Virus record (IMG/VR): IMGVR_UViG_3300013093_000118
Span: 1-37,508 of that record
Length of the DNA stretch: 37,508 nt
Origin: a virus
Reading direction: 5' to 3' (one strand)
Made by a program: the position numbers and the translations under genes. Below are positions 2,521-35,818 of the stretch, piece after piece. Numbering within the stretch: the first letter of the stretch is position 1; each line of letters opens with the position of its first letter. The notes below the pieces were generated by a model, which ran no database searches, was not told where the DNA came from, and was given only the letters and a program-made list of their open reading frames with translations.

Positions 2521-3204
2521 ATGCATGTTCAATTACTCAGTTACTCCCAGCCAACACAGGAATTTGCAGATTTGGGTATCCAAGATGCACAGGAACTCAT
2601 TGCGTACTGCGCCCGTGTCAGCAATCCCAGCAATCAACTTAACACCGAAACATCAGCAAAACTCATCCGATACCTTATTAAACACCAGCACTGGAGTCCA
2701 CTCGAAATGGTCTCAGCCTGCATTGAAATCACCACAACAAGAGATATTGCCCGACAAATCCTTAGACATAGAAGCTTCAGTTTTCAAGAGTTCAGTCAGC
2801 GATATGCTGATCCGACTAGAGACCTGTTATTCGTACCTAGAGAAGCGAGGTATCAGGACACCAAGAACAGGCAAAATTCAGTAGATCTAGATCCAACAGT
2901 AGATGACGATCGTCGTCTAGCGTATCAATGGGAAAATATACAGTTAGATATTATTAATCGTACACGTGATGCGTATAAATGGGCGATTGAAAAAGGTATT
3001 GCTAAAGAAGTTGCACGTGCTGTATTGCCAGAAGGGCTTACTGAAAGTCGACTGTACATGAATGGTACACTCCGTAGCTGGATTCATTTTATCGAATTAC
3101 GCAGTGCTAATGGTACACAAAAAGAACATCAAGAAGTAGCGATCGCGTGTGCTAAAGTTATTGCTGAGATTTTTCCAATGACCACTGATCTTTTAGCCAA
3201 GTAA
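2521..3204 (+). CDS. thyX: flavin-dependent thymidylate synthase ThyX
   Basis: The enzyme methylates dUMP to dTMP using methylene-tetrahydrofolate, with FAD and NADPH as redox partners, and supplies dTTP for phage DNA synthesis. The 227-residue protein has the family signature RHRX7S: R82-H83-R84 and S92 within RHRSFSFQEFSQRY. It also has HWSPLEM (57-63) and the C-terminal block with VLPEGLTESRLYMNGTLRSW and the HF..LR segment that binds dUMP. The length is usual for ThyX. The ATG is 3 bases after the previous stop and has only a weak Shine-Dalgarno, so it probably depends on coupling. The last 47 bases overlap the convergent gene at 3158-3820, and a terminator follows at 3226-3249. Phage-borne ThyX is known from marine myoviruses. 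Confidence 0.95.
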   Translation: MHVQLLSYSQPTQEFADLGIQDAQELIAYCARVSNPSNQLNTETSAKLIRYLIKHQHWSPLEMVSACIEITTTRDIARQILRHRSFSFQEFSQRYADPTRDLLFVPREARYQDTKNRQNSVDLDPTVDDDRRLAYQWENIQLDIINRTRDAYKWAIEKGIAKEVARAVLPEGLTESRLYMNGTLRSWIHFIELRSANGTQKEHQEVAIACAKVIAEIFPMTTDLLAK

Positions 3205-10475: not shown

Positions 10476-12347
10476 TTAAGCTATCACTGATTTAATCACA
10501 GCAAATTGCAAGACAATTGGCTCTGATAGTGCAACTGATGATAAATTATGCACAAAAATCGTTGCAGATCCAGCAGCTGGTGTAGTAGCAAAAGAATATG
10601 CTCCTAATGTTCCGCCAGAACAATGATTGACTAAAACTAGATCTGTTGCAGAAATTGCACTGTTTGTTAGGGTAAATTGTATAATAGCACCAGATGATAA
10701 ACTGGCAGAATTCATAGTAATCTGGCCATTAATTGCATTTAATGTAACACCGTTACCTTTAGTAACTCCTTGAGTTACAGTACCACCGGATCCTGTAGCA
10801 TATCCTATTCCAGCTATAGGACTATTAGAAACTATTGGTCCAGATGATGTTAGACTGTTTAAAGTTCCTACATTCTGTAAACTAGAGTTGATTACGCTGC
10901 TGCCTAATGTTGTAGAATTCAATACAGGATTGGTGCCAATTTTATATGATTTACCTGAAGCTAAATCTATATTTTCACTACTTGTCCATGAGGCAGTTGC
11001 AGAGCTCCACTGCAATGTTTTATCTGACCCGCCCTTAATTATAAATCCAGCACCATTGGCTGTAATGTCAGAAGGACTGCTTGTGTGAGCAAGAGTTATT
11101 GTATAGTCTTCAAGGTCTACTGTGGCTGTATTTTTACTAGTTGTTGTACCGTTAACTGTTAAATTTCCTTCAATAATAACAGTTCCAGGGCTAGCACTTG
11201 TGCCAACGTGTAATGTTGCAGCCGGTGTTGAGTTGTATAGCCCAATATACTGATCTCTAGCATCAATAAAGACTGCATTGTTTGATCCATTAGTACTGCT
11301 TTCTAATCCGATAACAAAATTTTGATCTGTTGAATTACTTTGTACTGTGAACGTGCCAGATGAAACATTAAATTCTGTATTACTGCTAGGTCCTAAAATT
11401 AATTGTGTCGATGAGTTAGAATTAGCAATAGTTAATTTGCCGCTAGCGAAATTATCTCCAGAAATTTGTAAGAAGTTTTGTGCATTTTTAAGACTACCGT
11501 CAGCTGCAATAAGATTGTTTGCCTGAGACACTGGTACATTAAACTCTATTCCAGTAAGTCCACTAGCAGTAAATCCAATATTAATCGATCCCAAGGCTGC
11601 GGTAATTGTTGTTGAAGCAACCGTGGCACTAGTACTTACTGTATAAGTTCCAGTGTTGCCATTTCCTGTACCAAATCCTGTAATAGTTGTTCCTGGAGGT
11701 ATGTTAGATCCAACAAGTACCATTCCCTGAGCAATAATGCCTGCTGTGACGTTTGTCACAGTTAATGTTGAACCACTTTGGCTAGCATTAAATGTAGCTA
11801 GTTTATTGAATCCAGAGATACTAGTTGAAGGTGTAAATGCGTCTTTACTATAAATTCCTAATAATGTGTTAGCAACATACATTAAAACTACTGTATGACT
11901 TTTTAAATTTGTATCTAAAATATCTTCTACGATAAATCCGCAAGGTCCCTGTGCGCTAGTATATATTGGTCCAGCTAAAAAGTTTGCAAGGCCATCATTA
12001 AAATATAACTGTCCAGTGGTGCTGTTAATCCATAGGTCACCAGTGGTCAATGAGCTAGGAACAGTGGGTGCAACTAAAGTTCCTCCACTGACTTTAAAAC
12101 TACTGCCATCATATACTTTTAGTCGTTGTTCGCTTGTATCATACCATAACTGTCCCGGTATTGGATGACTTGGTTGAACATCGTTAGCAAAATTTTCTAG
12201 TAACCATACAAAGTTATCATTAATAAAAGTACCGTACGAGGTAGAATTTTTTCCAATTAACGTTAAATTGGTAGCTGTCTGATCAATAGTGCTATCTTGT
12301 ACTACAGTTAGCAGATCACCGTTGGTTTTAAGTATTGAATAGCTCAT
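10476..12347 (-). CDS. tail fibre-type protein 2 (shared N-terminal module, different C-terminus)
   Basis: This 623-residue protein repeats the shared module: NGDLLTVVQDSTID, LIGKNSTSYG, NFVWLLENFAND, PIPGQLWYDT, RLKVYDGSSFK, GDLWINSTTGQLYF. An inserted beta domain follows at about residues 190-255 (GSTLTVTNVTAGIIAQGMVL and a GTGNGNTGTYTVS block). The middle looks like a fibre shaft, including LHVGTSASPGTVIIEGNLTV and a GTTTSKNTATVDLEDYTITL segment. The C-terminal domain (about 540-623) is not shared with its paralogues and has neither the collar domain nor the AEKYLAD block. The start ATG overlaps the preceding stop (TAATG), and the Shine-Dalgarno is weak, so translation is probably coupled to fibre protein 3. 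A role in receptor binding is inferred. Confidence 0.78.
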   Translation of the reverse strand: MSYSILKTNGDLLTVVQDSTIDQTATNLTLIGKNSTSYGTFINDNFVWLLENFANDVQPSHPIPGQLWYDTSEQRLKVYDGSSFKVSGGTLVAPTVPSSLTTGDLWINSTTGQLYFNDGLANFLAGPIYTSAQGPCGFIVEDILDTNLKSHTVVLMYVANTLLGIYSKDAFTPSTSISGFNKLATFNASQSGSTLTVTNVTAGIIAQGMVLVGSNIPPGTTITGFGTGNGNTGTYTVSTSATVASTTITAALGSINIGFTASGLTGIEFNVPVSQANNLIAADGSLKNAQNFLQISGDNFASGKLTIANSNSSTQLILGPSSNTEFNVSSGTFTVQSNSTDQNFVIGLESSTNGSNNAVFIDARDQYIGLYNSTPAATLHVGTSASPGTVIIEGNLTVNGTTTSKNTATVDLEDYTITLAHTSSPSDITANGAGFIIKGGSDKTLQWSSATASWTSSENIDLASGKSYKIGTNPVLNSTTLGSSVINSSLQNVGTLNSLTSSGPIVSNSPIAGIGYATGSGGTVTQGVTKGNGVTLNAINGQITMNSASLSSGAIIQFTLTNSAISATDLVLVNHCSGGTLGAYSFATTPAAGSATIFVHNLSSVALSEPIVLQFAVIKSVIA

Positions 12348-14719
12348 TATATGTTACCAGTAAAAATAATATAGTTGATAGTTAGGTATGGATTTACGAT
12401 TGGAACAGCGTTTCCAGGCTTTGCATTGTTACTTGCACTAGAACTTGTTGCTGCTGAAAAATATTGAGTTGCTCCAGTTGCCGCATAGGTTGGCAATTCA
12501 GTTACATCAAGTACTGCATTTTGTTGGCCGCCAGATCCGCCCACTGCATCGGCTGTGGTTGAGGTAATGCGTCTTGCGCCAGCAGATCCATCTAGTACTC
12601 CACCAGTGTATACTAAATTTCCATTAACATCAGTTGCTTGAGTATAGCTATTAACAGACGATCCATTAACACCGTCAGTTAAATTATCCATATTGTCACG
12701 ACCAAGTGCAAAACGACCTCTTAGATCTGGGAGACAGAATGTGTTTTTGCCCTGTGGTGTTCCTAAATTATAAGTACTACCAATGACGTTATAGAGTAAT
12801 CTATAGGTATCCTGACTTATTTCACTACCATCACACAATAGATATCCTGCGGGAACTGTAGATCCAGTACCTGCAAATGGTAATATTGAACCCACGGGCA
12901 CTTGACTCACATGACTTAAAAATACACTCTTAGTCATTGACTTTAATACTGAGCTATTGACTGTGGTTTGTAATACCAACAGTTGATCGCTAGGTGAAGA
13001 ATCAGTTGCTGCTGGTTTATTTGTAATCAACGGAGTATCAGCGGTTACTGTTAGTACAGCTTGTCCGTTTGAACTTATACCATTAAATAATGTTCCTGCA
13101 ATACCGCTTACTGGATCTGGCACGCTGATAAAATCAGATTGTACATTACCTACAGTTCCGCCTAATTTAAATAAAGTACTATTAGTTAAGGCAGCAGCAG
13201 TACCGGTAACGCTACCAGATACTGTTCCAGCAAACGTTCCGTTAAACACTCCGTTAAATGTTGATGCATATATATTTCTAAATGGTCGTGTTTGTGATCC
13301 AATATCGTAGATTGGTACAGTTTGATCTGCTGCTGGTTGAATTACTGGACCACCACTAGCATTACCGCTGATTAGTATTTTTCCAGATGTTGTTATATCG
13401 GCAGACGAAGTTAATGCTAAAGAAGTAGTAATACCCGATGTTGTATTTGCTGACAACACTGTAGAATTATTAGTAGTACCGTCAGTAACTATTAGGCCAC
13501 CTGCTGTACCAGCTACTCCAGAAGTAATTACTCCAGCAACACTCAGTACAGTAGTTGGATTAGTGTTATTTGCTCCTATTCCAACATTACCAGTTGCATC
13601 AATGTGTAACATAGTTTTATTGTTTGTTATAAAATCAAAACTATTTCCGGTTACATTTCCTGTAAATCCAATACTTGTTCCGTTAATGCCGAGATTAAAA
13701 TCTAAATTGTTACCAACACTAAACCCGCTGGCATTTTTAATATTCAATGGATAATTTGTAGTGCTAGAGATATCTGATCTTAAAAAGTTAGATGAACTTA
13801 CTGATGTATTATTAATTAATAATGAATCAGCTGACTGCGCTGTTCCCCAGAATCTAGTAACTGATGCTGCTAAGTTGGTAAATGTTAAACTTGTTCCCGA
13901 AACAAAATTTGGAGTAAAGACCACTGATGGGCTAAATGTTACTGTATTTCCATTAACTGCTGTCACTGTTAGACTAGTAATATTGCTACTGTTAGGAGGA
14001 GCAGCGAATGTTGCACCTCGACTGACTCCGATCGCACTAGTCACAGTAAACGACGAACTAGTAGTGCCGATCGTAGCAGTCTGCATAGTTGCTTGTACTA
14101 CAGTAGCACCGGTTAGTGAGTTTGATGCATCAACTGTACTGAGATTTATACCTTCATTAATCGATGAGAATCCGCTAATACTTGATTTTGGATTAAAAGT
14201 TTCTTTACTAATAATAGCAATTCTGTATCCATTAGCATACATAGATATTACATTATGTGTAACATTATTAATATCGTCAATGGTTTCTACAATAGGACCT
14301 GTAGTATTTCCAGTAGTATATTGTGGTCCTACTAATACCCAAGAGCTGCCTCCAAACAAATATAATTGTTGTGTAGTAGTATTAACCCAAAGATCACCGA
14401 TGTTGCTACTTGCAACCGCAGGCGCAGTGTCACCTTTTTTAAGTGATCCAGCTTCGACCCAATTAGTTCCATCATACAACATGAGAATTTTATTGCTAGT
14501 GTCATACCATAATTCGCCCTGAACAGGTGTACTAGGTGCAGTTGGGCTAGCAAAATTTTCTAATAACTGTAAAAAATCTTTAGCAATTACCGGAGCATAT
14601 CCTGAATAGTTTCTACCAACAAATGCTAAATCAGTAGTAGTGTTGAGAGAACCGTCCTCAACTACAAGGGGAATCTTAGCAGGATTTGTAGAATCTGTAA
14701 ATTGAATTTGATAGGCCAT
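12347..14719 (-). CDS. tail fibre-type protein 3 with C-terminal phage tail-collar domain
   Basis: This 790-residue protein carries the shared module at residues about 1-185 (VVEDGSLN, FVGRNYSGYAP, FLQLLENFA, PVQGELWYDT, GDLWVNTTTQQLYLF). A beta insert rich in Thr/Val follows (about 210-290), then RFWGTAQSADSL and repetitive shaft sequence. Residues about 605-680 form a tail-collar domain: VPVGSILPFAG, PAGYLLCDGSEIS, YRLLYNVIGSTYN and LPDLRGRFALGRDN, as in the phage Collar family found in short tail fibres such as T4 gp12. The ATG is 3 bases after the preceding stop, with AGGAG about 8 bases upstream. This gene most likely encodes a short-tail-fibre or adhesin subunit of the baseplate (family knowledge plus position). 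Confidence 0.85.
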   Translation of the reverse strand: MAYQIQFTDSTNPAKIPLVVEDGSLNTTTDLAFVGRNYSGYAPVIAKDFLQLLENFASPTAPSTPVQGELWYDTSNKILMLYDGTNWVEAGSLKKGDTAPAVASSNIGDLWVNTTTQQLYLFGGSSWVLVGPQYTTGNTTGPIVETIDDINNVTHNVISMYANGYRIAIISKETFNPKSSISGFSSINEGINLSTVDASNSLTGATVVQATMQTATIGTTSSSFTVTSAIGVSRGATFAAPPNSSNITSLTVTAVNGNTVTFSPSVVFTPNFVSGTSLTFTNLAASVTRFWGTAQSADSLLINNTSVSSSNFLRSDISSTTNYPLNIKNASGFSVGNNLDFNLGINGTSIGFTGNVTGNSFDFITNNKTMLHIDATGNVGIGANNTNPTTVLSVAGVITSGVAGTAGGLIVTDGTTNNSTVLSANTTSGITTSLALTSSADITTSGKILISGNASGGPVIQPAADQTVPIYDIGSQTRPFRNIYASTFNGVFNGTFAGTVSGSVTGTAAALTNSTLFKLGGTVGNVQSDFISVPDPVSGIAGTLFNGISSNGQAVLTVTADTPLITNKPAATDSSPSDQLLVLQTTVNSSVLKSMTKSVFLSHVSQVPVGSILPFAGTGSTVPAGYLLCDGSEISQDTYRLLYNVIGSTYNLGTPQGKNTFCLPDLRGRFALGRDNMDNLTDGVNGSSVNSYTQATDVNGNLVYTGGVLDGSAGARRITSTTADAVGGSGGQQNAVLDVTELPTYAATGATQYFSAATSSSASNNAKPGNAVPIVNPYLTINYIIFTGNI

Positions 14720-15380: not shown

Positions 15381-17045
15381 TTAATACAATTTGGTAGAAG
15401 TTCTACCGCTAATTCCGGTTGTTGTTCTCGGGTATGCTGGTGCGCTAGAATTATTTTTAGCTCTAAAAGCATAATTTTGTTTAGGATATGTTGGGCCAGT
15501 TCTATATAATTTATATAAGGCTGGACCGTTTGGAGAACCTATTCCAGTGGCAGCATCCCATCCTGTAGTAGCCTGATAACCAACGGTGTTACCTCCATGA
15601 TTATCACCGCTGGTAATATCATTGAATGCTGTAGTTCTGTTAGCGTACCAAGTGGCATTGGCTAATCCTATTCGTGTTCCGGATAGCTGATTAATTCTAG
15701 CTACAAGACCTGCTAGTAAAGGAGCCACTGCGCTAGTACCAACAAATCCTGATCCTAGAGTATTGCTAGAAGTATAGTAAAAACTATATCCAGTTGCCAT
15801 GGCAGAGACATCAGGAATACCGCGTCCTGTTAAGGTTGCTACTGTGCCACCCGGATATGTCTTGCTACTGAATCCTGTTTGCCACGACGGAACACTGAAT
15901 AAACTACTGACTCCTCCTCCGCCTGCAAATGTTCCACCACTAGTGCCCCAAGGTGTTTCTGCTGTAATAGCGTAACTGCTATTAAGAGTAACTACAGTTC
16001 CTCCGGCACAGATAACATAGGGACTTGAAGCAGGATACTGTACAGTATAATCAGTACCACCGCTAACAGCTTTGACTCCATAGTCGCCTGCTGCCACTAT
16101 TACTGTAATTCCCTTTGCCACACAACTAGCAAGTGCTGTTTCAAAAGATGCACGTTGGCCGCTAGACCAATTAGTGTCGGTTGTTCCCCAACTAATAGAT
16201 AGCACACTAGGATTGTATGTAGTATCAATAGCCACTGCGGTTATTGTATCTATAAATCCTTGAAATGAGTTTGGAGCAAAGTATGTAACTTGTATAGCCT
16301 GCGGCGCTACTGCTCCTACACACCAAATGTCTAACATAACTTCACCACTGGCATTAGCATCAGCGCCGCCATCATTGGCGCCGCCGTCTACACTGACGTT
16401 ATACACTGTCGGTGGTGCAAAGCTAATTTGACTAAATGTGCTGGTTAAATTTTGTGTAGTCCAGCCGCCGCCTAATTCTAAAATAGCCACGCATGCACCT
16501 TTGCCCTGTTCAGCTGCGGTAGTTGCAGGATCTGCAGGAAAAACATACCCTTGGGACAGCTCATTAGGATACGGACTAGAAGAGGAGCTTTGTTCTAAAC
16601 TAGGATCCTGATGGGCATCAAATTTAAACGATAATGAGTTATCTAGTCCAACTACCGAAGTAACAGCATTAGAAATTTCTGCAGGTATCGTTATATTTCC
16701 AGTGTGCGTAAAATATACCGTATCATCATTAGTTACGGTTTGTAAAGTTATACCAAATAGTGCATTAAACTGTGCAGTGGTTCCTTGAACTTTTATAACT
16801 GCACCTCCCTGAGACGCTTCAACAATTACTAGGTTATTAGCTGTTGCCCAGGAAGTTACTGTATCCATGTCTTGAGCAGTAGCACCAAATTGATATACAA
16901 ACTCATCATGATCAAGTATAGGGTGTGTACCATCGCCGATGGCCTCAACATACTGATGTATATCCATGCCGTTATCATGTGTATCTCTGTTGATATACAA
17001 ACTAACTAATATGATATCGTCAAGATTTTTATTTGTAGTAGTCAT
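15381..17045 (-). CDS. S53 family serine-carboxyl protease (sedolisin/kumamolisin type) with prodomain
   Basis: I start it at the ATG at 17045, which has GGAA 8 bases upstream and lies 14 bases after the giant gene's stop; the longer frame begins at a TTG (17057) without support. The 554-residue product has an activation prodomain at about 10-140 (DEFVYQFGAT, FNALFGITL, VTSVVGLDN). The catalytic domain (about 182-510) shows the sedolisin residues: E235 and D239 in GEVMLD, D321 in AAGDYG, S438 in GTSAVAP. The C-terminal Ca-binding part has D476 (FNDI) and D497 (GWDAATGIGSPNG). All catalytic residues are present, so activity is likely. There is no signal peptide. About 45 residues rich in Pro, Arg and Ser extend beyond the protease fold. 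Its place among baseplate genes suggests a virion protease or a processing enzyme for virion proteins. Confidence 0.92.
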   Translation of the reverse strand: MTTTNKNLDDIILVSLYINRDTHDNGMDIHQYVEAIGDGTHPILDHDEFVYQFGATAQDMDTVTSWATANNLVIVEASQGGAVIKVQGTTAQFNALFGITLQTVTNDDTVYFTHTGNITIPAEISNAVTSVVGLDNSLSFKFDAHQDPSLEQSSSSSPYPNELSQGYVFPADPATTAAEQGKGACVAILELGGGWTTQNLTSTFSQISFAPPTVYNVSVDGGANDGGADANASGEVMLDIWCVGAVAPQAIQVTYFAPNSFQGFIDTITAVAIDTTYNPSVLSISWGTTDTNWSSGQRASFETALASCVAKGITVIVAAGDYGVKAVSGGTDYTVQYPASSPYVICAGGTVVTLNSSYAITAETPWGTSGGTFAGGGGVSSLFSVPSWQTGFSSKTYPGGTVATLTGRGIPDVSAMATGYSFYYTSSNTLGSGFVGTSAVAPLLAGLVARINQLSGTRIGLANATWYANRTTAFNDITSGDNHGGNTVGYQATTGWDAATGIGSPNGPALYKLYRTGPTYPKQNYAFRAKNNSSAPAYPRTTTGISGRTSTKLY

Positions 17046-17059
17046 ATTAAATTCCAATG

Positions 17060-20000
17060 TTAACGACTATAGTCAGTATACCATATACCAGGAACTGCTT
17101 TAATAAATTTAGCTATTGTGCTGTTGTCTTGCAGTATGTTGCTCGCAGTGTCGCCTGCACGTATATTTTGATTTAATAGATTTAAATCATATCCATCCCA
17201 CAATTCACCTGTTGTTTTAACTACAGTTATTTGTGTGCCAACTGCTAGTTTGTTTGTCAATGTAATAGATGAAGACGTTCCGTCGACTGTAAAATCTGCT
17301 GGGAAACTAACATCGCCGTTGGGGCTATAAGGTGCATTATTAATGTTGAATACACTGTACGCAGATTTCTTCAGACGGATGTTGCCAACAAAGAAATGCC
17401 AGTTTGCACTGTCAAGAGTGAATGTACTAGAGCTTACGTGAGCTGTTGTACACTTGTATGTATAGCTGTTAACTGTAACAATGTCACCAATACTGTAACT
17501 AGTATTTGCAGACCAGATAGCAGTATCGTTATATCCGCCGACAAACACTTCAATCTCATTTACGCTCTTAGGAACGAAATTGAGATTTACAGTGTTAGTT
17601 CCATCAGATTTAATTGTATATGTTGTAGCTGTATCCACATAAGGAATCGTTTCACTTGGTCCAATATTTTGCACTGATGTTCCGGAACGATTTAGTGAAT
17701 ATATACCTGTGCCTAATGTACCTCTGCGTAGTTGACTTAATACATTACCGTTGAGAGCAAAGTATTCAATACGTTCTCCGCGGATCTCAACTATTCCTGG
17801 TTTATTTTGAGAAGGATTTGGTAAGTCAAATTTACTTGCATCAACTACTACAATTTGTGTGTCATTCCATTTTAAATCTGCGGCTAGCATGGTTCTAGTA
17901 TTAGCATTTAATCTCTTATAACTAACTCGGTTAAGCATATCTTTAAACTGCATATATGATGCACCAGTTTGCGGCAATACATTGCTACCAAATGTAATTA
18001 AAGTAATTTTATCTGTTAAACTTGGTGCAACTGTCAGTTGAACCGATTGTAAATCTGCACTTAGTTGATAATCAACGGACGGTGTTAACAGCGTATTATT
18101 TTTAATTACCCAGACATAGTTACTGTTTAATACAGGACGATCTAATGGTAATGACCCGCTGGTCAATCTATTAAACGCATAAAATGCTGGAGTCCCTGGA
18201 GTAATTGAATATGAAGAATTAAATTCAATTTCTGTTCTTTGCATATCTAAAAAATCGTGAACATATGAGCTAATAACTTCTACAGTATGTGTATTGTCGT
18301 ATGCTTGAGTAAATGTTATTTGCTGAGTATTTGGATTATACGAGTATCCATCAGTTGCTTGTACACTGACAGTTAGTTGTTTTCCTAAATACTGTCCATA
18401 GATTGCTTGATTAATGCTCACAGTTATACCGCTTAGATCAACAGTATAATCTTTGCCTAGTGTTAATTTATTTCCATCTGCGTATACTAAAATGCTGTCA
18501 ATTGATACTGTAAATGGTGTAACTTTATAAGAATCGATTGTATAATTTAGCTCTTGATTCTGTATAGTATAATAACTGTTAACAGGTCCGTATAGTATAT
18601 TTTGATCTACACGAACTAACATAAATGACTCATCCGGTAACTGATTGCCTACAGGATTTTGTAAAGTATATGTCAAACTACCATTGGTTGCAATCTTTTC
18701 TGATTTAGTAATCGCAAATGACTGTTTAGATCCTGATACTATAATATAATTTATCAGTGAGCCGGCTGCTGGAGCTCCTGCAAATCGTAGACCGATAGTA
18801 TTCGAATATTCATATGTTGAATCTGTTTTAAATAGTGTTGGGTTTACAGGTTGCCCGTCAACATAGGCTAAAAATGTTACAGGTGTTATCCAAGGTGCTG
18901 TTGTAATAAATTCTCTAGTTGTTCCGTCACCTACAAAATAATTAGTATCTAAAATATTAGCACCACTAAACCCAATGCTAAAAATACTGATTGTTTGATT
19001 AGCTGTTGGAACTGAGCTAAACTTGATCAGTCTATTTTTATAATCAACTCTATAGTCTGTTGTGTTATCTGTAGTATAGTTCATAATTGTTGAACCAATT
19101 TTAACTATTACTGCTGTAGGACTATTAGGTTGTTGACTAATTGAATATTGGTAGGTAATTCCATCTGAAATATAATTATCAATCTTGATGCTTGCAGAAC
19201 CGGTACTAGGTTTATCATAAACTTTAACCGCTAGTGCATCTACGACTTGTCCCGGAACAACTTCTTCCGTCGCTGGGCTAGTAGTTGGTGTAACTAAACC
19301 ATCGCCATCAAGTACAATGTCATCTGCTGCTAAACCTGTTGCTGTACTGTATGCAAGATCACCACCTGTGATTGCGGTATCATAATCAACTAATTGACTA
19401 TTAATTGAACCATCACTGGTTTGCTGACGCAATATAAATGAATCGTTATTACTTACTACAAATGAATTAGGAATAGCTATTACGGTGCTAGTAGTACCAT
19501 CAGCATTATTGACCGTTGTAACAGTAGGTGTTCCAGTGGTGCCAATATTAATTGTTTGCATGATAGCACTTGAATTAGTCTGCTGTGGTGTACCGTAATT
19601 AGGATCATCTAATCGTTGAGGAGCCAATGTGCCGGTAATAGCAATAGTGCTGCCTGATGGTGTGTCTGCTAAAGCCGATTGAGTTAGCACAATGGTTCCG
19701 TTAGCATTAATTGTCACGTCGACTGGTTGTATCAATGTTCGAGTAAATGTGATGCTGGTTGCATTTGCAATATTTGTATATAATATTTGATTTAATGTTA
19801 CATTGTGATTAACAGGATCAATGCTAACAATCTCTGCATTATAGCCAAAACTATTCACGGCGGTCGACACAATATCACCGATACGCAATCCGGTTGTATC
19901 TGCTAGCGATAGTATAAAACTACCTGCAAGATTACTAAATGTCAGAACTGTACCGTCTGGAACTGTACCGATAGGAGGTGAGCTAATTGTTAATGTGGTT

Positions 20001-23000
20001 GATGATAGCACACGAATTACTTGCTGTCTATTGCTAAATCCTGTTCCAGATATAATCATCCCCGGTACAATGCCAACAGTACTTGCCACTGTCAATTGAG
20101 TATTGACACTACTTGCTGCGGTATAGGTACTGGTGATAGCCCGAGTTTGTTTAAATAATTCAACGGTGGCAACTGGAAAACTAATCTTAGGGTTGAACGA
20201 ATAACTCGAAGTAGTTCCATCGGCTGTATAAGACTTAATGTAATTTTGAACATAATATACGTTCAATAAAGTGCCCACTGTGGGATTATATGGCAGGGTA
20301 AACGTATGAGTATTCGCCGCTACCTGGATTGTATAATCGGTATAGTTAGGGTCGAAAGCGTCCCATTTATCTGTATAGAATGCGCTAGAGTCCCAACCGC
20401 CACTGACATTAAAATCTAAACCACTAACAACGGCGCCACCGTAATCAACTCCAGTCATTAATTGTGACAAATCTTTGCCTAACTGTCCGCTAGTTGGATT
20501 ATAATAAAACTGAATTCTATCTACTGATGTTAGGAATGTAGTATCAACTGAATAATTTATTACTATTACACTGTTTTTCTTTGGTGCGGTTGATAAAGTT
20601 AGTTTACCAGAATAAACAGTCTGTCCAGATACTTTACTAGATACTAAAGAAATAGTATAAAATTCTCTCAATAGTGGCGCACCGTTAATTGTAACACTAG
20701 ATTTACCTACACGGATATCCGGAGCCCATTGCAACGTAAATTGTAACTGTGAACTAGTAGTTGTAGTAAATGTTTGAGTTTTATTCAAACTATTCATATA
20801 ATAACTAGGTGTAAGTCTATCAAATTTTAAACTAATTAAACTTGATCGAACTACACTATTACCAATATAAGCTACCGCAGTGGCCGGTGTGCCGCCTACT
20901 GATAATCCACCGCTAAGAGTCACAGTTGGGGTTGTTAAATATCCTTTACCGTTAGTTATTAACACAATTCTATTAACAACTCCGTTGGCAATGTATGCTT
21001 TAGCTGTGGCGCCGGATCCAGAACTGCTGCTAATAATAACCTGTGGAATATTAATATATCCGCTGCCGCCTGATGTAAGATGAATTTCTGTCACTTCGAA
21101 TCCAACATTATCTAACCAGAATTTCCAAGGATATTCGGTCAGTGTAGAATCAGTGTAGTGAACAACACCATTTGATACCGTTGGGCATAGAGTGGTTAAT
21201 TTGTTGTTTTCATATGTCGACTGTAAATCAAAATCAGTCACAGCAGTACTTCCCATTTCAACGCCGGTTGTTCCCGGAACTCCTGAAAATTTACTAATAT
21301 ATTCTCTAACTTTTGTTCTGTATGGTTTAACTTCTGAAACATAGTCCTGGAAGTTACTTAAATTATCAACAGGATAATTCACTGGCTGGCTAAGCTGTCC
21401 AACATTATGTGTAGCTCTTACAAAACTAGTTTTAAATATCCAATCAAGATATAGTTGTTCACTATAGGCATATCTCACCGTTGAGAAAAATAAATCTAAG
21501 TAAGATATCTTGAGATCGTCAATAAAAATATTATTTTTTATAGCATTTAAAATAGTTCTTAATTCAGTTGCAGCTACCGTATCAAATGAAATTTCATCAA
21601 ACGTACTAGCATCATATCCAACACTGGTACCTTTGAAATTATAAAGTGCGCTTGATAACTGTATTGTACCTTCTTGTAAACCTACCACCGAATAAGAAGC
21701 TGTCCAATCAACTGAACTTGAGTTAGCAACTTTTTCTAATAATACCCACTTTCCTGAATTTGCTGTAAGTACTTTGACAGTCTCACCGATCTCTGCAGAA
21801 ATAGAATTTAGATCAGCAAACGTACTAATTGCAAAATCAGGCGAAGTGAATTGACTATAACCAGTTTGATACCAATCAATATAACTCCAGTATTTTCTAA
21901 CATCATATCGTTGAGTTAATATTCTAGACCACAGTTTATTAACTGGATCATAACTATAAATGCTCCAAGTATTATCTGCTTGGCTGTCGCTTTGAACTAA
22001 CACACAGTAATCTCTAACCAATGCTACTGTATTTTCGTCATACCCCTCACCACCGTTTATAACAGTTGCGCCGATTATATGACCTAACGAGTCAATAACT
22101 GCCTGTACTACTGCGCCATCGCCGCTACCTGCTATAGTAATATAAGGAGCATTAATATATCCCTTACCCGAATTCACAATGGTAATGCCGATGATCGTAC
22201 CATTAGTAATAATTGGTGTCAATACTGGTCGAGTAAACGATCCAATCGCTACTGCATCGATGCCAGCTTCTGTTAATATAGTTGTATCCCACAGTCCTGA
22301 TATCGTTGTTGGTATCGGATCATGACTTTCTAATGCTGTGAGATCTCTTGATTCAGTAATTTGCACTGAAGACATTACAGAATTAACTGTTTCAATAAAT
22401 TCCTTTAATGCCTCAACACGATTTACAAACATACTCTGACGTGGACGATTTTCAATGCCGTAACGTAGTTTAGGTGGAAGTGATGGATCTGGAACTACTC
22501 GACCCTTTTGATCAACTCCGCATAAGCTATCGAACCATTTTTGTTCAATAGTATGTGGTAAATCAACGATCGTATCATTACTAATTAACTTCCATTGACT
22601 ATGGACATTTTGATCAGTATTGTCGATCAACCAATATTCAATAGATAAAACTGTGTTAGTACTGTTGAGCAGTGGTTTAACATTAGTTAGACTAATTGAA
22701 TTATTTGCAGTAAATGATATGTAACTGTATCCTTGTCCTCTTGGATTAGAGATTAAATTAGCCACTGACGCTGCTGAAATATTTCTGCCAGATATATTTG
22801 GTACAGTCTGTTTATTCTTAACCCAGAAATAATAAGTGTTGATATAAGTTTTAGTAAGACTGTCATATCGAGCATAGACACTGTACACGCTATCACCGTA
22901 TAAACTTGTTCCACTAATACCTAATGCTAGTCCAGCTGGAGTGTCGGTTTTCTTAGTATAATCATAATAGCTGTCCCACACAGATGGCAGATACGGAGAG

Positions 23001-26000
23001 CTAACCCATTCATAAATGTCAATGCTTGCTCCCGGTGCTACTGTGTTCCATACATTATTCCTATAAGCAGGATCATTAAAATAAGTTTCTAAAAACTTAG
23101 CAGTTCTTAAATCCCACCACAGTTGACCAACTTGAGCCGAGGACCAGAAAGTTGTAGGGTCAACATTTACCGATGATGTTCCTACAGAATAAGTTGCCGG
23201 GTCGTAAAATGACTTATAGCGAAGTTCTTCTTCAGCAATGCCGGCAATTTTTCCCTGCAATGGATCAATAATATCAAGATAGGTAACTAGTTCACCAATT
23301 GATTTATCATATAAAAATACTTTTTTAATCTTATCTAAATTTGGAATATCTGTTTGTGTACGATCTATCGTCCATGTATATTTGTTAGGAGTTTTATAAA
23401 AATCAAAAATATTTCCAGATTGGAATCCTTGATCATATGCGTACGGTACTCCAGCAACTATATGATTGTTACCAACTGCAAATCCTTGGCCAAATCCTTG
23501 ATACGATGTTGGGTTTGATAAACTTTCTGCAAACACCCATTTAGAAGAATATTGATCGTAAACATCTATTCTACCAGAACTAATATTAATTGTTCTAAAA
23601 TTAGTTGATTGTTTATCAAAAGTAGTTGTACCCTCATCAATTGTTGTAGTAGTATAAGTATCGCCGTCTTGACTATAAACAACTAATGTTTTATAATCAT
23701 TCATAAATGCTATCTTATTACCAAATTTGGAACCTTGAGTTGGTTGATGATCTTGTAGTTCTTGATACAGACTGTAACCGGTTGCTGTGTTAACATAAAC
23801 TCTTACAAAACCTTGTTGAGTTGTAGTAGCAGTATCTGCAGACTGATCAGCAATCGCAATATATTCCCCCGAGTTAGATATTGCAATACTGTTACCATAG
23901 TTATTGTCAGCATTATTGTCTAACGTATTAGCCGTTGGCAATATTTGAGTTTGAGTTAGACTATTTGCAATTTGTTTGTAAACATAAACTTTGCCAGTTT
24001 GCGAACCGGCCGTTGCAGATATTAGTACGGTTAACCCATCATTACTTACTACAATTTGATTTCCAAAATTAGTACCATTAGGTCCGATAATACTGGTAGA
24101 TAAATCATAGCCCCAGCCGGTAGTATAAAAACTTAATAAACCATCTGGAACGCCATCCGGTGTTCCGGTCAATAGTAATGTTGTATTGTTTAATACTGTC
24201 TCAACTGTTTGTCCCTCGGTGAATCCTGTACCCTTAACATGCATACCCGGGAAAATTCCAAGAGTCGATGATAAAACCAAGGTGCCTTTTCCACTTCCGA
24301 TAGGATTGTAAATCGCGCTGATTACCGTTGTTGATGTGTAAGAAAATTTATAAACCTGATTTGTTCCAGGAGCACCAACATATAAAGCATCAACACCAAA
24401 CGCTAGGGCTGATCCAAATAATTCGCCGGCTGCCGGTGATGGGCTAGTAATAGTGTCAATTAGATTATAATTATTGTCTAAGTCTTTCTGATATATCGAA
24501 ATGACACCCTGTTGGCTTAATCCAGAACTAGCTGTTACTGTACGCAATAATGCGAGGCCTGTACCAGCACCTGGTCCTGTAGCAACAAAAATTGTATCAA
24601 CAGTATTAGATGCAGCTCCAACTTTTGTAAAGTCAGTGAGTGTTCCTAACGTTTGAATTACATATGATTGATTAGTATTAAACGATCCTGCGGTTACTGC
24701 TGGACCAAAAACGCTGCCTGATCCAGTTCCTGGACCCGATGCTGTAAACACTGTGCCAACCGCATTTGAAAATGCTCCCACTTTTGTAAAGTCAGAATTT
24801 CCTGTTGTTCTAATAGTATATTGAGTTCCAGTGATTAACGATCCAGCATACACAATGGGAGCTGCTGTGCCAGTGCCAGTTCCTTGACTATTTGCAATAA
24901 AAAATTGCCCAACAGTATTAGATGCTGCTCCAAACAGAGTAAAATCAGTAGGACCTAGATTTGCAATCTGATAAGTTTGGCCGGCTACAAGATTAGTTGC
25001 ACTTACTGTTGTTGTTGAAAATTTTGGTTGACTTACAGGTATATAGGGTATTTCTTCCCAATAGACAGAATTAACAGTAGAAGGTTCTGTACCTGTTGGC
25101 ACTGGAAGAACTGCTTTCCAGTATAAGTTATTGTGACTAACGATACTACCTTGTAAGTATGTTTGAGATACCCAACTACCCAAGTAATTACTAGAAACAT
25201 CACTTGCAGTGGGCGATCCTGTAACTAACCAAGAAGCATCCGGTGACAATGCTATTACAGTTGCCGATGCAGAAGGTTGCAATCTATTAGAAAAGAATGG
25301 AACATCTAATTTGCCAGTTTGCACCCAAGGAGAATTTACTCCTGCTCTGGCATGCATAATAACATTACCAGTGCTGGTTCTAATGGCCATTGCAGTGCCT
25401 TGTGAGTTTACAGCAATTAAAGACCCATACAGAGCATTATCAAATGGGGTTAAATTTGCTATTGCTGTTGATTTATAGCACGGTACGTATTTCCAAGTGG
25501 CCCACTTACCGTCACCTCGGTCGTCGGTCCAAATTAGTTCATTTGAATCGAGATGCAATGGCAATAACGAATCAATGTTATCAATAGAAGTAGTACGCTG
25601 ACTGGTTAAACTATAAACAACCAATGTAGAAACCAGCGTTACATAATCTGCGTTACTAGAATTAGCAGGCGACGGAAAATTTGATAATGTTGCTGAAATT
25701 GTAAATGAATTTACGCCAACTCCGGTAACTTGATAAAAACCGTTGACCGAAGGTACTTGTGATAAACCAACATAATCACCGATTTTAAGTTTTGGAATTG
25801 TTTCTGTTGTTAATGTCAGTACGTTAGAATCATAAGATGCAGCACTTATTCGAATGCCAAGGTCAGTGAATCTGTAAATGTTCCAATCATTAGGCTTATT
25901 ATCAAATGTACACCAAATATAAGCTCCATTGTTGAAGGTGGTTATATCTTGAGTCACGATGTCTGATATATTTTTGAGGGTAATAAACACATCATTAGGA

Positions 26001-29000
26001 TTAACATAACCTGCACTACGCAATAGAGGTTGATAATTTTCAGTTATCGGAAATGGTGCTGAATCGTATCCATTGGGTTTTAAATAAACATCATTAGGTG
26101 TTTGTTGAATTACAAAATTACTAATATCTGAATTAACTGTATTAGTTAGTACCAGTGCTTGCGGATTATTTTTAAATGTCCCTTCATCCAAAACTAATTC
26201 AATGTTTTCAAAAGAGTGACTTGCACCGTATTGTCCAACACGCAATGCCCACTCTTCATAAAATGTCAAACTCTCTAAATTATCAGAACTTAATACATTA
26301 AACAATTTATTAAGGACGTTTTGTGTACCCTTCTCTCGGATCATTCCCTGATAGAATTTAAATTCACTAACGTCATCTTGAATAATGTTTTCAAGGTACT
26401 GACGCTTTTGATAGCCAATTAAATGCTGGCCCATTGCTTGTTGAGCACTGTCAAAACTATCAACTTCAAGGCTATAAAAATCTGTAAACTGTGTGGCAAT
26501 ATTTGTCCAGTTAGGCAATATCTGCGCCATTGGTTTTGAATTCAGTTGTACCCAATCTGTTGATATAAATGTTGCTGTACCTGCAATAAATTTGTCAGCA
26601 CTATAATAGTAACCTTGGAAACTGATTACCTCGCCCATGTTATAATCTTGCCATGCTTGCCAGCTTTGTATTTCTGCCCGGTCATAGATAAAGCCTGGAA
26701 TATCCAATCCACCGTACCATCCGTTGGTTACATATGCAGATGCCTTAACTCTTTCTCTTCTATAACCGCTTGGGGGATTATAAATGATATCATTAAAAAT
26801 TGTAGAATTATCAATGATTGCCACGTGTTCATTTTGTATCAAATAAAAACTAGCACAGAAAATTCCATCAGTAGTCCTTGGACTATATGTAGCAGTGTTA
26901 CCTTCTCGATAGCTGTCTAATTCACGAGGAGGTATCGGTGTGCCGTCAGCTTTAAATATTTCATAGTTATTAAAAGAATTACTAATATCATCAATGACCG
27001 TTAGGTCAGTAGTAAATGATAATCCTGTTGCGCCAGGACTTAGACTGATTACTGAATTACCAACATTGCTCAATCCATCTAATTTATTATATTTTGTTGA
27101 ATCAAATACATCTGATGCTGGCAAATTGTATAATGCACTATAATATACTCCATCATACCGCACTATGGTTCCATAGTTAATTGGAGTATTGGGTGTCCAG
27201 TCGGACCACTTATCCTGAGAGACTGACCAATTCTGTGTAGTCCAGAACATAAACTCCTTGGCACTAGTTTCCCAATTTAGCACAACTCCTAAATTAGTAT
27301 TAAAATCATCAAACAAGAATCCTTGATCTTTTAAGTACTCACCGTATCCAGTTAAAAAATCTACCACATCTTGTATGGTTGTAAACAATGTTCCGTAAGG
27401 TACAGCTGTCGGAGTAGTTCTATCCCAGCTTTTTCTAAAATATGCCGAAGCGCCGCCGACTACAGGTAACGCTGTTAATAATGCAAGGTCAGTAGCGACA
27501 AATGTGCTGCCGGCTGTGAACGTTTTAGTTGCTCTATAAAAAGCTCCACTATACTGAACAATGGTGTCAATTGCATATTGTTGACCTGGAGTCCAGATCG
27601 AATAATTTTCTGAAATGCCACCGACATTGACCAGATTAGCAGTTTGTGTGTATTGGTATGAATAGAAGTACGGCTGAGTTATACTGTATCCTTTAACCTC
27701 AAATCCTGTTGAAACCTTAGTGATAATAACACCACTATAGGTTAATTTCTTAACAGGGCTCGAGCTATTTAAAATTATATTATAGTTTTCAGAAGGAATA
27801 AACACGCTGCCTGTAGACAAAGGTGTTTTGCTTTCTAATAATAAATTAAATTGATCTTTGTTAGTAAATGCTCCAACACGATAACTTAGACTTGGTAGTA
27901 TTAATTTTAAATCACTAGCATATCGATTGTAGTCAGTAAGATTATTACTAAAAATATAATTTAAAATAAGGTCAACTACATAATTTACAATACCAGCAGT
28001 TTGCACACGAGTTTTACTAGAATAAATGCTAGGAATTAAAACATCCGCAGGTGTAATACGCAATCCAGTATCTTTAAATACTAGTTGTCCGGCTAAGTTT
28101 CTAACAATTCTTGATCTATCTAATAATAGACCAAATGTTTTTGCAGGAGTAGCCAACATAGCCGCAATAACAATACTAAACGGGTAATGACTGCTGCGTC
28201 TCCAAGCTGTTTCAACTGGGCTTTCATCTCCGAAGATAAAATTATTGTCAGTGCTTTGTGTAATTGGTCCTTTTGCCAGTCCTGAAAATGTTGGGCTAAC
28301 TAAATTTCCATTTTCGTCAACTGGAAGATGTGACATTAAAAATGGTTTAGCATACTTGGACAAAGTATATGCCGGAACTGTACCATCACCTCGAACCACA
28401 CCGTTGGCAATATCTTGCCACATTATTAAATTGTTACTGGTATAAGGTGCTGGTCCGTAGGTCGATACCCACCATGTAGGCTGTATTGTAAATCCTAACA
28501 TTTCCCATGGGCAAATATTAGGACGATCAGTATCTAACATCCAGCGATAGATTCCTCTCCAATAACCCGGAGTTGGACGACCGTCCGGTGTTACACTTCC
28601 GGTATAATTATAGGTAAAAGAATTAGCTCTATCATAATTGAGAGGCTTTGAAAAATCTACACCTAACTTGCCGACCCAGCGATAAAAGTTAGGAGCAAGT
28701 ATCTGATTAAACTCAGAAAGGCTGTATGCTGTTTTTCTATTATAACCTGGAATAGTATCAGTAATATCAAAAATAGAAGTATCATAGTTAACTTTGATAT
28801 TATTGAAAATTCTTTTTTCTAGTTCTAATATTAGATTGTCTCTATAATCACCATAGGCTAGAATCAAACTTCCATCGTGCCCTTGTATCATAGTACGAGG
28901 AGTCACTAAGGTTGTATCAGTATAAATTTTAGGTACAAATTTTGGATAAAATCCTAATTTAGTCGGAGTAGCTGGTACAAAACTGCCGTCAGTGCTGTCA

Positions 29001-31861: not shown

Positions 31862-34800
31862 TAGTTAGATGCTCCAAAATTTGCGCTGGTTATGTTTTGA
31901 CTAGATACTACTGTTGTTAGTGCTTCACCGGTAACTGTTTTAAGATTAGCACTAGTAAGTCCTGATACTATTACAATATTTTTAGCTGTGGCACAACTTA
32001 AAAATATTTGATTACTAGAACATTGTACTTCAAATAAACTACCAAAGTATTGTCCAGATTGAGTAGGCACAATAACAAAGTTTGTAATATCTGGTGCTAG
32101 TTGATTCATGACATATGTTGACAATTCTGTAAAATAAAATGTGTCACCAAAGTCCCAATTCTGTAAAGCAAAAAATTGATTAATTGCTGTTAATATTCTT
32201 GCGGTAACGTCGGCAGTTGATACAGCAATAGTTGGATTGATGATGACATTAAAGGTTGCTTGTAAAGTAGGATCAGCCTGTTCTCCAAACAAAAGTTTAT
32301 AACTTACAGGATGATAAACAATTTCATCGCTAATAGCTTTAATTAAATTCAAATTAGAACTTAGCATACTGTTAAGTTCTGCTGAACTTGGAGGTAAAGG
32401 CTCGCTGATATTTGCGCCAGACAACCATTGTCTAAATTGAGAATCATAGCTGTCAGTTAATACATAGATATCAATAATATTGCTTGGTCCTGGATCAATC
32501 CTTGAATCATAATCTGCACTATGAGTGTATTGAAATTTAATTTTATCTCTACCAGTATATACTCTGTAATCTAAAGTAGGAGAAAATATACCAGTTGTGC
32601 GATTTAATTTTTTTACAACACTAGTATCAATGAAATAAAAATATTGGCCATCTGGATATAAAGTAGAGGTAATACCTGTTTGTGTTGATTTGATGATTAC
32701 AGGACCAGTATCTGGATCATTTAAAACATATCGATAATCTTCTTGACCTTCTGTTATAATATATTTTTCTTCTATAATATATTTGTATTTGTCTTGATCA
32801 AAGTTTCCAGTATTTGGATTAACCATGTCAAGGAATAGTTGAGGATTATCTACTATACCATTACCGCTAGAATCAGCAAACGTTACAACAATCTTTTTAG
32901 GATCTATATATCCGTCTTGTCCTACGTATTCACTAACAACTTGCCAATCAGAGTCAACTGTAAATGCAGATGTACTGTCTGGTTGTGTGTTAATACTTAA
33001 TAATTTAATTTGATCTTTAACTATATTGCTAGATGCAATATCATAAATTTTCTGATTACTGTCAAAATAGAAAGTTACAGCCGCATCGCTTTCAAATACA
33101 TAGCGTATTTGTCTAGTGGTGATAGTGTAGTATTCATTATTAGTAGTAAACAACAACATCCAACTACTGTCTATTTGAGTACTCGAAGTGTCTCCTTGGT
33201 TAACTAAACTAAAAGCACCTGCAACATTAAGATCTTGTTCATAGATAATTTGCCATGCTTGATTTACTGCATCATAGCGTAGACCAAATGGTTGATTAGC
33301 AAATATTAAGTCTATCATTGTTGATTGAACACTTGGTGTAATTGTTAAAACAAACTTAGGAAGGATTTGTGTTATTACGGCATTAGTAGGTATTTGCTGA
33401 TTTAATTGAATAGGTCCAAATCCTGTGGCCAATCTACCAGTACCACTAGCAGTGCCGTCTCCTGACACTGACACGACTTCAGCCCAAACATACGTTGTTC
33501 CGCCTGCTGGAATATTTCCAGTATATGCTACTAGTTCGTTGTTCTTTTTAGTATTAAAATAATAGCCAGCTGGTGCAACAAATTTTAGTAACGCACCTGC
33601 ACCAACATATTTTAAATTTGTTGCAGTAAGATTTTGTCCAACAGTATAAGGAGTAGCATTTGCGATTGATCCAATATATCCACTGGACATGTTGCTATCA
33701 GAAGTTATACTATACCACGCAGCACTATTACCAACTGTTAGTACGTCAATGAAATTAGCATAATAAAAATTTCTTAAATTTTGATCTCGTAGAATATCAG
33801 TTACAGTGTTAGCAATAATTCCTGCAATTTCAGTCTGTGTAGTATAGGTGAATGTGGTAGAATATGTAAATGGTTGTTGATAAAGTACGCCGTCATCGGC
33901 AAACAAATTAGTGCTACTGTACTTGCCTGTTGGATCAGTCAGATCAAAATAACGGCTAATACCGCTGCTAGTTCTGTTTACTGCCTTAACCTTGGCCACC
34001 TGAAGATTAGCACTCAGCGGACTAATATTATAATCTTCACCTGTAATCATTCTATTTTGTGTATAGTATGTCTGAGGTGCGTTAGTTTTAATACTAGCAT
34101 TTGTTTCTGACGCGGTTGCATTAGTCACTGATGTTGCCAGACTTAATGTAATAGATAATGTTTCACTTGTGTTCTGTGCTGAAATGTAAGGTATAGTAAT
34201 TCCAACGTTTACAATATCTGATGGATTAATTGTGTATGATAGATTATTACTTACTCTGTAATATACTCTAAAAGAGCCTAGTGGCAAATTACCAAATACT
34301 CCGTCACTAAACGCCAATGCGATTGCATCGTTTGCTTTGGTTAATACGCTATAGATATTTTTAACCTGATTGCTACTTAAACTGTTATAAATTACATTGT
34401 TACCAGTAACAGAAGGAATTTTTGTCCAGGTGGTTGATTCTGCACCTTTCTGATCAATGCCGTATAACCATACGTCGGTATTGTTAATATTTTGAGTAGC
34501 AATGTCAATCGTTTGATTACTGCTAGGTTGCGTCACTGTAAATGTTGCAGTGTTCAACGATCCTTGAGTGAAATTAAAAAAGAATCCAGTTCCTGGACTA
34601 CCAGCACCGTGACCATCATCACTATAAATGCAGGCGATCTGATTACCTGCTTTAGGTGCTTCTTCATAAACAAAAGTTTCACCCTTGAATGTTGCACTGG
34701 TAATTTCAAAATTCATTGCACGACCTGCAACTGTTTGAGAAAATGTGTAGATAGGCACATCTGTATTAGATGAGTTAAATCTATACTGTGCTGTAGGAAT

Positions 34801-35343
34801 GCCGTAAATTACAGAATGATCAGCTGGGGTTCCAAACTGTTGAGTTGCGGGCATTGCCGCATTAAAGACTTTAATAAATTGATCATACCAGTTAGGATTG
34901 CTAGGATCATTCCAGTTAATATATTGTCCTGCAATGTTTCTTCCATTACTATCAATTACGTTTTCGCTAGTACGAATAGTTTGAATTTTTAATAGACCAC
35001 TGGCTGCAACGTTTCTGCTGGCATTATAGCTGACTAACTGTGCTAAACGCAGTACGCTATCACGACGTTCTGCTAGTTCTAAAAAGTTCTCACGAGCATT
35101 TAGGTCAACGCGGAAAGCAATACTTTGACCTACATAGGCTATAAGATCTATAAGAGCTAGATACTCGCTACTTTCAATATAATCGTTAAAATCTTCTGGA
35201 AAATTTGTACGAATATAGTCAATCATTGTTCGACGCAGATTATCAAAGTCATAGCTTTGAAAGTCAGCATTTTTAAAACTTTGATAAATTTTGGTCCAAT
35301 CTTCTGATACTAGGAGATTGTTTTGTCTAGCAGTTGAACTCAT
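31861..35343 (-). CDS. gp6: baseplate wedge protein gp6
   Basis: This gene encodes the T4-type wedge subunit that joins neighbouring wedges into the baseplate ring. The N-terminal block (about residues 8-110) is highly characteristic: NLLVSEDWTKIYQSFKNADF, SYDFDNLRRTMIDYIRT, FPEDFNDYIESSEYLALIDL, ARENFLELAERRDSVLRLA. The C-terminal part (about 1010-1140), with QATFNVIINPTIAVSTADV, WDFGDTFYFTELSTYV and the strands after it, corresponds to the baseplate-J-like core that dimerises in T4 gp6. At 1160 residues it is much longer than T4 gp6 (660), with extra beta-rich sequence in the middle. The start ATG has AGGAA upstream and a late promoter box at 35362-35369. The stop overlaps the giant gene (TAATG), so gp6 and the giant protein are translationally linked. 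Confidence 0.93.
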   Translation of the reverse strand: MSSTARQNNLLVSEDWTKIYQSFKNADFQSYDFDNLRRTMIDYIRTNFPEDFNDYIESSEYLALIDLIAYVGQSIAFRVDLNARENFLELAERRDSVLRLAQLVSYNASRNVAASGLLKIQTIRTSENVIDSNGRNIAGQYINWNDPSNPNWYDQFIKVFNAAMPATQQFGTPADHSVIYGIPTAQYRFNSSNTDVPIYTFSQTVAGRAMNFEITSATFKGETFVYEEAPKAGNQIACIYSDDGHGAGSPGTGFFFNFTQGSLNTATFTVTQPSSNQTIDIATQNINNTDVWLYGIDQKGAESTTWTKIPSVTGNNVIYNSLSSNQVKNIYSVLTKANDAIALAFSDGVFGNLPLGSFRVYYRVSNNLSYTINPSDIVNVGITIPYISAQNTSETLSITLSLATSVTNATASETNASIKTNAPQTYYTQNRMITGEDYNISPLSANLQVAKVKAVNRTSSGISRYFDLTDPTGKYSSTNLFADDGVLYQQPFTYSTTFTYTTQTEIAGIIANTVTDILRDQNLRNFYYANFIDVLTVGNSAAWYSITSDSNMSSGYIGSIANATPYTVGQNLTATNLKYVGAGALLKFVAPAGYYFNTKKNNELVAYTGNIPAGGTTYVWAEVVSVSGDGTASGTGRLATGFGPIQLNQQIPTNAVITQILPKFVLTITPSVQSTMIDLIFANQPFGLRYDAVNQAWQIIYEQDLNVAGAFSLVNQGDTSSTQIDSSWMLLFTTNNEYYTITTRQIRYVFESDAAVTFYFDSNQKIYDIASSNIVKDQIKLLSINTQPDSTSAFTVDSDWQVVSEYVGQDGYIDPKKIVVTFADSSGNGIVDNPQLFLDMVNPNTGNFDQDKYKYIIEEKYIITEGQEDYRYVLNDPDTGPVIIKSTQTGITSTLYPDGQYFYFIDTSVVKKLNRTTGIFSPTLDYRVYTGRDKIKFQYTHSADYDSRIDPGPSNIIDIYVLTDSYDSQFRQWLSGANISEPLPPSSAELNSMLSSNLNLIKAISDEIVYHPVSYKLLFGEQADPTLQATFNVIINPTIAVSTADVTARILTAINQFFALQNWDFGDTFYFTELSTYVMNQLAPDITNFVIVPTQSGQYFGSLFEVQCSSNQIFLSCATAKNIVIVSGLTSANLKTVTGEALTTVVSSQNITSANFGASN

Positions 35344-35389: not shown

Positions 35390-35818
35390 TTAATTAACTA
35401 TACCGTTAGTTTGATCAAACTGGACTTGTAAATTTTCCGACAAATTGTATGGAACATAGGTTAATGTAGCCTGTATCTGTATGCCAGTGTCGTACGGGGT
35501 TATAGTAATATTACTTGCCTGTACACGTGGGTCGTAATTTAATAAAAAATTTACATTTTGCAAAATTACATCCTGCACTTGGGGTGTTAATGGCTCAAAC
35601 AGTAGATCCCAGATAACACATCCAAATGTAGGATTCATCAGGCGTTCACCTTGTCGGACATAGAAGCTGTTTAGGATATCTTGCTTAATTAGTTCAAAAT
35701 CATAAAGAGCAAAATTCTGACTATTAGTGTTTACTGTACTAAATCCCCTATACATCTGTGATGTAGAAACAGTAGTATTAGGTTTTCCGTTAATAGTTAT
35801 TTTGTTTTGTAGGCTCAT
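35390..35818 (-). CDS. gp25: baseplate wedge protein gp25 (GPW/gp25 family)
   Basis: This 142-residue protein has the typical gp25 core at about 35-130: YDFELIKQDILNSFYVRQGE, RLMNPTFGCVIWDLLFEPLT, and the later LNYDPRV block with two beta strands. In T4, gp25 sits near the hub end of the wedge, helps attach the sheath and starts its assembly. The length is close to T4 gp25 (132). The ATG has AAGGAG upstream and overlaps the gp5 stop (ATGA), so it is coupled to the hub gene. gp6 follows after a late promoter. Confidence 0.93.
   Translation of the reverse strand: MSLQNKITINGKPNTTVSTSQMYRGFSTVNTNSQNFALYDFELIKQDILNSFYVRQGERLMNPTFGCVIWDLLFEPLTPQVQDVILQNVNFLLNYDPRVQASNITITPYDTGIQIQATLTYVPYNLSENLQVQFDQTNGIVN

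Follow-up and report, generated by a model that had tools for sequence, protein, structure and literature searches.

The window analysed here, a 37,508-base IMG/VR record, contains on its minus strand an open reading frame that is, judged by its residues, a catalytically intact S53 serine-carboxyl peptidase. Related phage proteases carry a shared C-terminal tag and are encoded next to a fibre protein that ends in a conserved domain, here called the dock. We consider it rather probable that the S53 protein is an exchangeable virion enzyme, which would be docked by its tag on a fibre and cut host surface proteins at adsorption. The enzyme itself is an S53 member; the novelty lies in its setting, among virion-associated enzymes. 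The original prediction contained neither the tag (residues 512-554) nor the dock-fibre partner of relatives, nor the deletion scar at 17046-17059.

The reading frame runs from an ATG at 17045 to a stop at 15381 and encodes 554 residues. A Pfam search found Pro-kuma_activ (PF09286) with an E value of 7.1e-17, and a sequence search of the PDB matched residues 18-511 to pro-kumamolisin (1t1e, E 2.8e-81). An AlphaFold model made with 35 phage sequences (pLDDT 87.7, pTM 0.90) contained a folded prodomain, and its top PDB fold match was again intact pro-kumamolisin 1t1e (TM 0.83/0.86). The S53 identity and prodomain proposed earlier were thus recovered by both profile and structure model. The kumamolisin catalytic residues, the oxyanion Asp included, align with E235, D239, D321 and S438, and the Asp residues of its calcium site with D476 and D497. 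All of these were present as predicted, and they were kept in all full-length phage homologues examined. The catalytic assignment rests on the PDB match to kumamolisin; the kumamolisin row in the phage alignment is approximate and served as a yardstick only. Comparison with the closest contig (L002) gave 56 synonymous and 17 non-synonymous differences (dN/dS 0.087), and the window S53 is therefore a gene under purifying selection. Coordinates are collected in Table 1.

Table 1. Features of the S53 gene and its surroundings in the window.
Feature	Position	Strand	Evidence
S53 (kumamolisin-type) peptidase, 554 aa	15381..17045	-	Pfam, PDB, alignment, model, dN/dS
Prodomain, residues 1-157 (Pfam Pro-kuma_activ at 27-136)	16575..17045	-	Pfam, PDB match, model
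Catalytic domain, residues 158-511	15513..16574	-	Alignment to kumamolisin and phage homologues
Catalytic codons E235, D239, D321, S438	16341-16343, 16329-16331, 16083-16085, 15732-15734	-	Alignment
Ca-site Asp codons D476, D497	15618-15620, 15555-15557	-	Alignment
C-terminal tail/tag, residues 512-554, ending TYPKQNYAFRAKNNSSAPAYPRTTTGISGRTSTKLY	15384..15512	-	Conservation, low pLDDT
YPR codons of the tag	15426-15434	-	
Intergenic CATTGGAATTTAAT between giant stop and S53 start	17046..17059	-	Aligned to L003 fibre-end/S53-start junction
4,933-aa giant virion protein, gp7 position	17060..31861	-	C-terminus longer in relatives, then dock fibre
phrog_11259 protein, 202 aa	14723..15331	-	E 2.2e-67; synteny
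Tail-collar fibre protein, 790 aa, no dock domain detected	12347..14719	-	Domain searches
gp6-like baseplate wedge (phrog_10646)	31861..35343	-	Profile and protein matches
gp25-like baseplate wedge	35390..35818	-	Pfam and PHROG matches
gp5-like hub / tail-lysozyme-position protein	35815..37494	-	PHROG match

The window S53 resembles kumamolisin and sedolisin (MEROPS S53; PDB 1t1e, 1gt9, 1sio) in its prodomain, its Glu/Asp/Ser and oxyanion Asp residues, its Ca-site Asp residues and its fold, with 34% identity across the whole chain. It differs from them in being encoded by a phage, within a baseplate operon, and in having a C-terminal tail of ~43 residues that bears the tag. It also differs at the N-terminus, where no hydrophobic signal-like segment was seen by eye, in agreement with the reported absence of a signal peptide. 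A further departure from the known enzymes is a phage S53 subclade that is entirely without a prodomain. These proteins of ~408 aa (L038, L041, L053, L057-L060, L072, L073, L076 and L113) keep the catalytic residues and the tag; where the window has E190 (kumamolisin Glu32), they have Ser or Gly.

The minus-strand order in the window is gp5-like hub, gp25-like protein, gp6-like wedge, giant protein, S53, phrog_11259 and a series of fibres. The succession gp5, gp25, gp6, giant is that of the T4-like baseplate operon of Rak2/121Q/Atu_ph07-type phages, with homologous proteins present, which upholds the original placing of the S53 gene in such an operon. Because the gp6-like protein matches those of Atu_ph07, Phosso, 121Q and GAP32-type phages (genomes of ~310-490 kb), the window most probably represents part of the genome of such a jumbo phage. 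The neighbours had been given as a gp7-position protein and a baseplate protein; the gp6-like wedge and then the gp7-position giant do lie upstream, but the downstream phrog_11259 protein can be called baseplate by position only. Synteny places phrog_11259 as the next gene after S53 in most jumbo-phage loci. In Atu_ph07 a GIY-YIG-like gene lies between the giant and phrog_11259, and in Phosso nothing does; this slot thus tolerates insertions.

No S53 protein was found among 50,697 GenBank phage records, and isolates are therefore unusable for S53 proteomics. S53 queries of IMG/VR gave 20 loci and a dock-fibre query gave more, with 35 distinct viral S53 proteins after removal of near-copies. 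These include S53 genes at the giant-protein locus of relatives. The earlier statement that sedolisins are not a standard part of T4-like virions holds among isolates, but many uncultivated phages have S53. In a tree the tagged phage S53 proteins formed one clade, and the two untagged, dockless viral proteins (from L022 and L025) fell among cellular enzymes. The former (L022:9761-11395) lies on a 214-kb viral contig and groups with bacterial S53.

The dock is a conserved C-terminal beta domain of ~105 aa. Of the 20 S53-query loci, 17 had a fibre gene with this domain directly upstream of S53, both beside the giant protein and at loci unrelated to it; the three dockless loci were L022 and L025, which encode distant S53s, and L002, the near relative of the window. 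Modelling gave a confident beta domain (pLDDT 95) with no significant match in the PDB (best E 0.089), and the best matches in a viral library were the same cyanophage fibres. Twelve dock-fibre starts were sampled, six matching T4_gp9_10_N and four collagen. T4 gp9 and gp10 are baseplate attachment proteins (PF07880), and a domain of this type at the N-terminus of half of the sampled dock fibres suggests that these are attached to the baseplate. Unlike gp9 and gp10, dock fibres bear a C-terminal dock and have a protease partner. At L006:2986-9979 an S53 gene is paired with a dock fibre of collagen-like type, near DnaK and Hsp20-like genes.

The dock was also present in 45 GenBank records, nearly all of them Synechococcus phages. 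When 10 cyanophage loci were opened, the dock gene was followed in seven by an S8 subtilase, usually after a 1-nt gap. Clustering at 90% left 60 distinct genes downstream of dock fibres, comprising 32 S53, 21 S8 and 7 others, and the gap between fibre and protease was exactly 1 nt for 29 of these genes in the S53 group and 13 in the S8 group. The cyanophage S8 subtilases (S-H38, S-CREM1, S-H9-1, S-RSM4; PHROG 9158) resemble the phage S53 proteins in the upstream dock, the spacing and the C-terminal tag. They differ in having an S8 and not an S53 catalytic domain, and their annotations go no further than protease or hypothetical. A dock fibre is not always followed by a protease; in G020 one occupies the giant/phrog_11259 slot (L196:867-1733) and the very next gene is not a protease, a complete S53 module lying at another place in this phage.

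The tag, with consensus RPxxGxxYPR, was found on both S53 and S8 phage proteases, usually no more than 10 residues from the C-terminus. In the alignment of phage homologues, tail positions P521, K522, R528, Y538, P539 and R540 were at least 90% conserved. The window tail does not match the strict pattern and carries instead a variant that contains YPR (AKNNSSAPAYPRTTTGISGR), nearly identical to the tail of L003, which has a dock fibre. The tail was disordered in the model of S53 alone (pLDDT <50 at 525-554). No tag was found in 80 cellular S53 proteins, which had no dock nearby either, or in 82 dock fibres. A further 2,185 distinct ORFs gave only four relevant cases. In three of them the tag is on the small protein encoded third in a dock operon, the second gene of which encodes a non-protease virion protein; the fourth (L032) follows the same kind of virion protein, its upstream sequence being cut off. 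A chance motif was rejected. All four cases are small genes of dock-type operons; encoding proteins of 77-120 aa, they are the last genes of their operons (L026:3197-3430, L032:2726-3007, L034:6292-6534 and L035:7097-7459).

A scan with an S8 query, which is independent of the dock, yielded 80 loci, with a dock fibre upstream in all 77 that were readable and the tag in 72. Five GenBank S8 proteins located away from this dock (dock 1), in S-SCSM1, P-SSM2, S-T4, Sf-CH8 and AG-345-L05, were all without this tag (tag 1) and follow genes with a different C-terminal domain. An 80-locus scan of a second S8 clade (S8-B) found a second dock (dock 2) in 54 cases (~70%), and dock 1 and tag 1 in none; a dock was recognised in neither form in 22 cases, the dock-2 model having been built from five sequences. 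S8-B members have a C-terminal motif of their own, in some beyond a proline-rich linker. The pairing of dock 1 with tag 1 in S8-A, and of dock 2 with another motif in S8-B, suggests that tag class follows dock class, over few independent clades (S53, S8-A and S8-B). Dock 2 together with S8-B and its motif (L285-L364; L279-L284) was seen in P-SSM2, S-T4, Sf-CH8 and many other viral contigs. The ACG-2014h contig encodes an S8 protease that continues past the tag into an esterase-like alpha/beta-hydrolase region and has a cupredoxin-like end (L028:4317-7241). In the S-SCSM1 record the dock fibre and the dock-2 S8 protein are both annotated as 'virion protein', and mass spectrometry in the study of this phage identified 45 virion proteins (PMC9602691). 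The annotation of a cyanophage S8 after dock 2 as a virion protein lends indirect proteomic support to a related arrangement, and in this way to a virion location.

Two contigs, L040 and L007, carry an S8 and an S53 gene respectively at one shared site. Their flanking genes are closely alike (fibre 85.5%, phrog_11259 97.5% and next fibre 99.6% identical), and the two proteases have the tails ARPSSGTVYPR and FRPATGTVYPR, plus a few residues. Between L007 and L018 the flanking genes are 74-97% alike, whereas the S53 proteins are 44% identical. The S8/S53 swap, together with the divergent S53 proteins of L007 and L018, argues that the protease is an exchangeable cassette beside the same fibre, with the tag kept.

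The dock fibre directly upstream of S53 is absent in the window and in L002, and present in other close relatives. A dock fibre of the window's own was rejected for the sequenced part, as no dock domain was found in the window down to E 10, and none in G000 or G001. The scar between the giant and S53, a putative remnant of the dock-fibre gene, is identical in L002, and the giant of the window is without the TFD-rich C-terminal tail seen in relatives. These features are best read as one probable deletion, extending from the 3′ end of the giant gene through the dock-fibre gene. An assembly artefact was rejected, because L002 shares the junction while its S53 differs at 73 bases. Since the S53 genes of the window and L002 are under purifying selection without a dock fibre, an adjacent dock is not essential. 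The window S53 would then either bind a dock encoded in an unseen part of the genome, or need no such fibre and be held in another way.

In the reading that we favour, the dock fibre would be anchored to the baseplate, in half of the sampled cases through a T4 gp9/gp10-type N-terminal domain, and its C-terminal dock would bind the RPxxGxxYPR tag of the protease. The fibre-borne protease would travel on the virion and cut host surface proteins during adsorption, perhaps on an acid trigger, and S53 and S8 would replace each other next to the same fibre with the tag retained. Of the two roles originally proposed, digestion of host surface protein at adsorption is supported by the dock-fibre/tag pairing and by the swap at one locus, and maturation cleavage fits these less well. 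A maturation protease is the main rival, in our judgement an unlikely one: S53 or S8 would cleave a virion protein at assembly, for instance the giant or the dock as a removable C-terminal chaperone, and the tag would be a recognition or self-processing tail. Gene adjacency and the near-constant 1-nt spacing suit a neighbouring substrate, the removable chaperones of phage fibres are placed at the C-terminus, where the conserved fibre domain also sits, and the prodomains of known S53 enzymes are self-cleaving. Maturation therefore explains adjacency, but it explains poorly why two protease families swap beside one fibre, and why the tag is found on a separate small protein in protease-free operons. 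It is further opposed by the apparent correspondence of tag class with dock class, by the selection still acting on the window S53 after loss of the fibre, and by the phage in which a dock fibre has no protease directly after it.

The absence of a signal peptide and the tolerance of the giant/phrog_11259 slot for insertions would also suit a lysis aid, or an effector that is injected or acts inside the cell, for which the baseplate operon would be a mere late-gene insertion site. Such an enzyme seems to us very improbable, given the tight association with dock fibres across many unrelated loci, the C-terminal tag common to two protease families and the annotation of a related S8 protein as 'virion protein'. 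Equally improbable is a tag that has no docking function and serves instead as a general C-terminal signal (for folding, stability or incorporation into the virion), passed on together with the fibre-protease pair. Shared cassette ancestry does explain part of the pattern, since the tagged S53 proteins group in one clade and S8-A members are homologous to each other. S53 and S8 are, however, separate families that are both tagged, unrelated small proteins of dock operons also bear the tag, and another C-terminal motif replaces it where the fibre end differs.

Docked proteases may be part of a general plug-in enzyme system of tailed phages, a proposal to which we give even chances. Fibre receptor domains of at least two dock/tag classes would here hold S53 and S8 enzymes, swapped as cassettes, as an interchangeable proteolytic tip. 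The likeness to cohesin and dockerin is an analogy of working only: in both cases a short conserved tag and a receptor domain let one catalytic module take the place of another on a scaffold, and more than one such pair exists, but the dock and tag belong to a phage and not to a cell-surface scaffold, and their binding is putative. We know of no sequence relation between the two systems. Phage tails are known for sugar-degrading enzymes, and to our knowledge protease-armed phage fibres are little described. Neither a phage sedolisin nor the tag/dock pairing was found in the open literature searched, a coverage outside which most subscription journals lie. Docking, if true, would account for the way in which certain aquatic phages could get past protein coats, S-layers for example. 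It would also offer a natural pair of tag and receptor with which enzymes could be fixed on fibres, and make a testable class of many 'hypothetical' genes beside the fibres of cyanophages and jumbo phages. The window, in which the protease has outlived the neighbouring fibre, makes dependence on the dock directly testable.

On the plus strand, the window also encodes a metallopeptidase plus VWA-like protein (DUF2201) at 1-1017, which resembles the co-chaperones described for jumbo phages, and a ThyX-type thymidylate synthase at 2521-3204.
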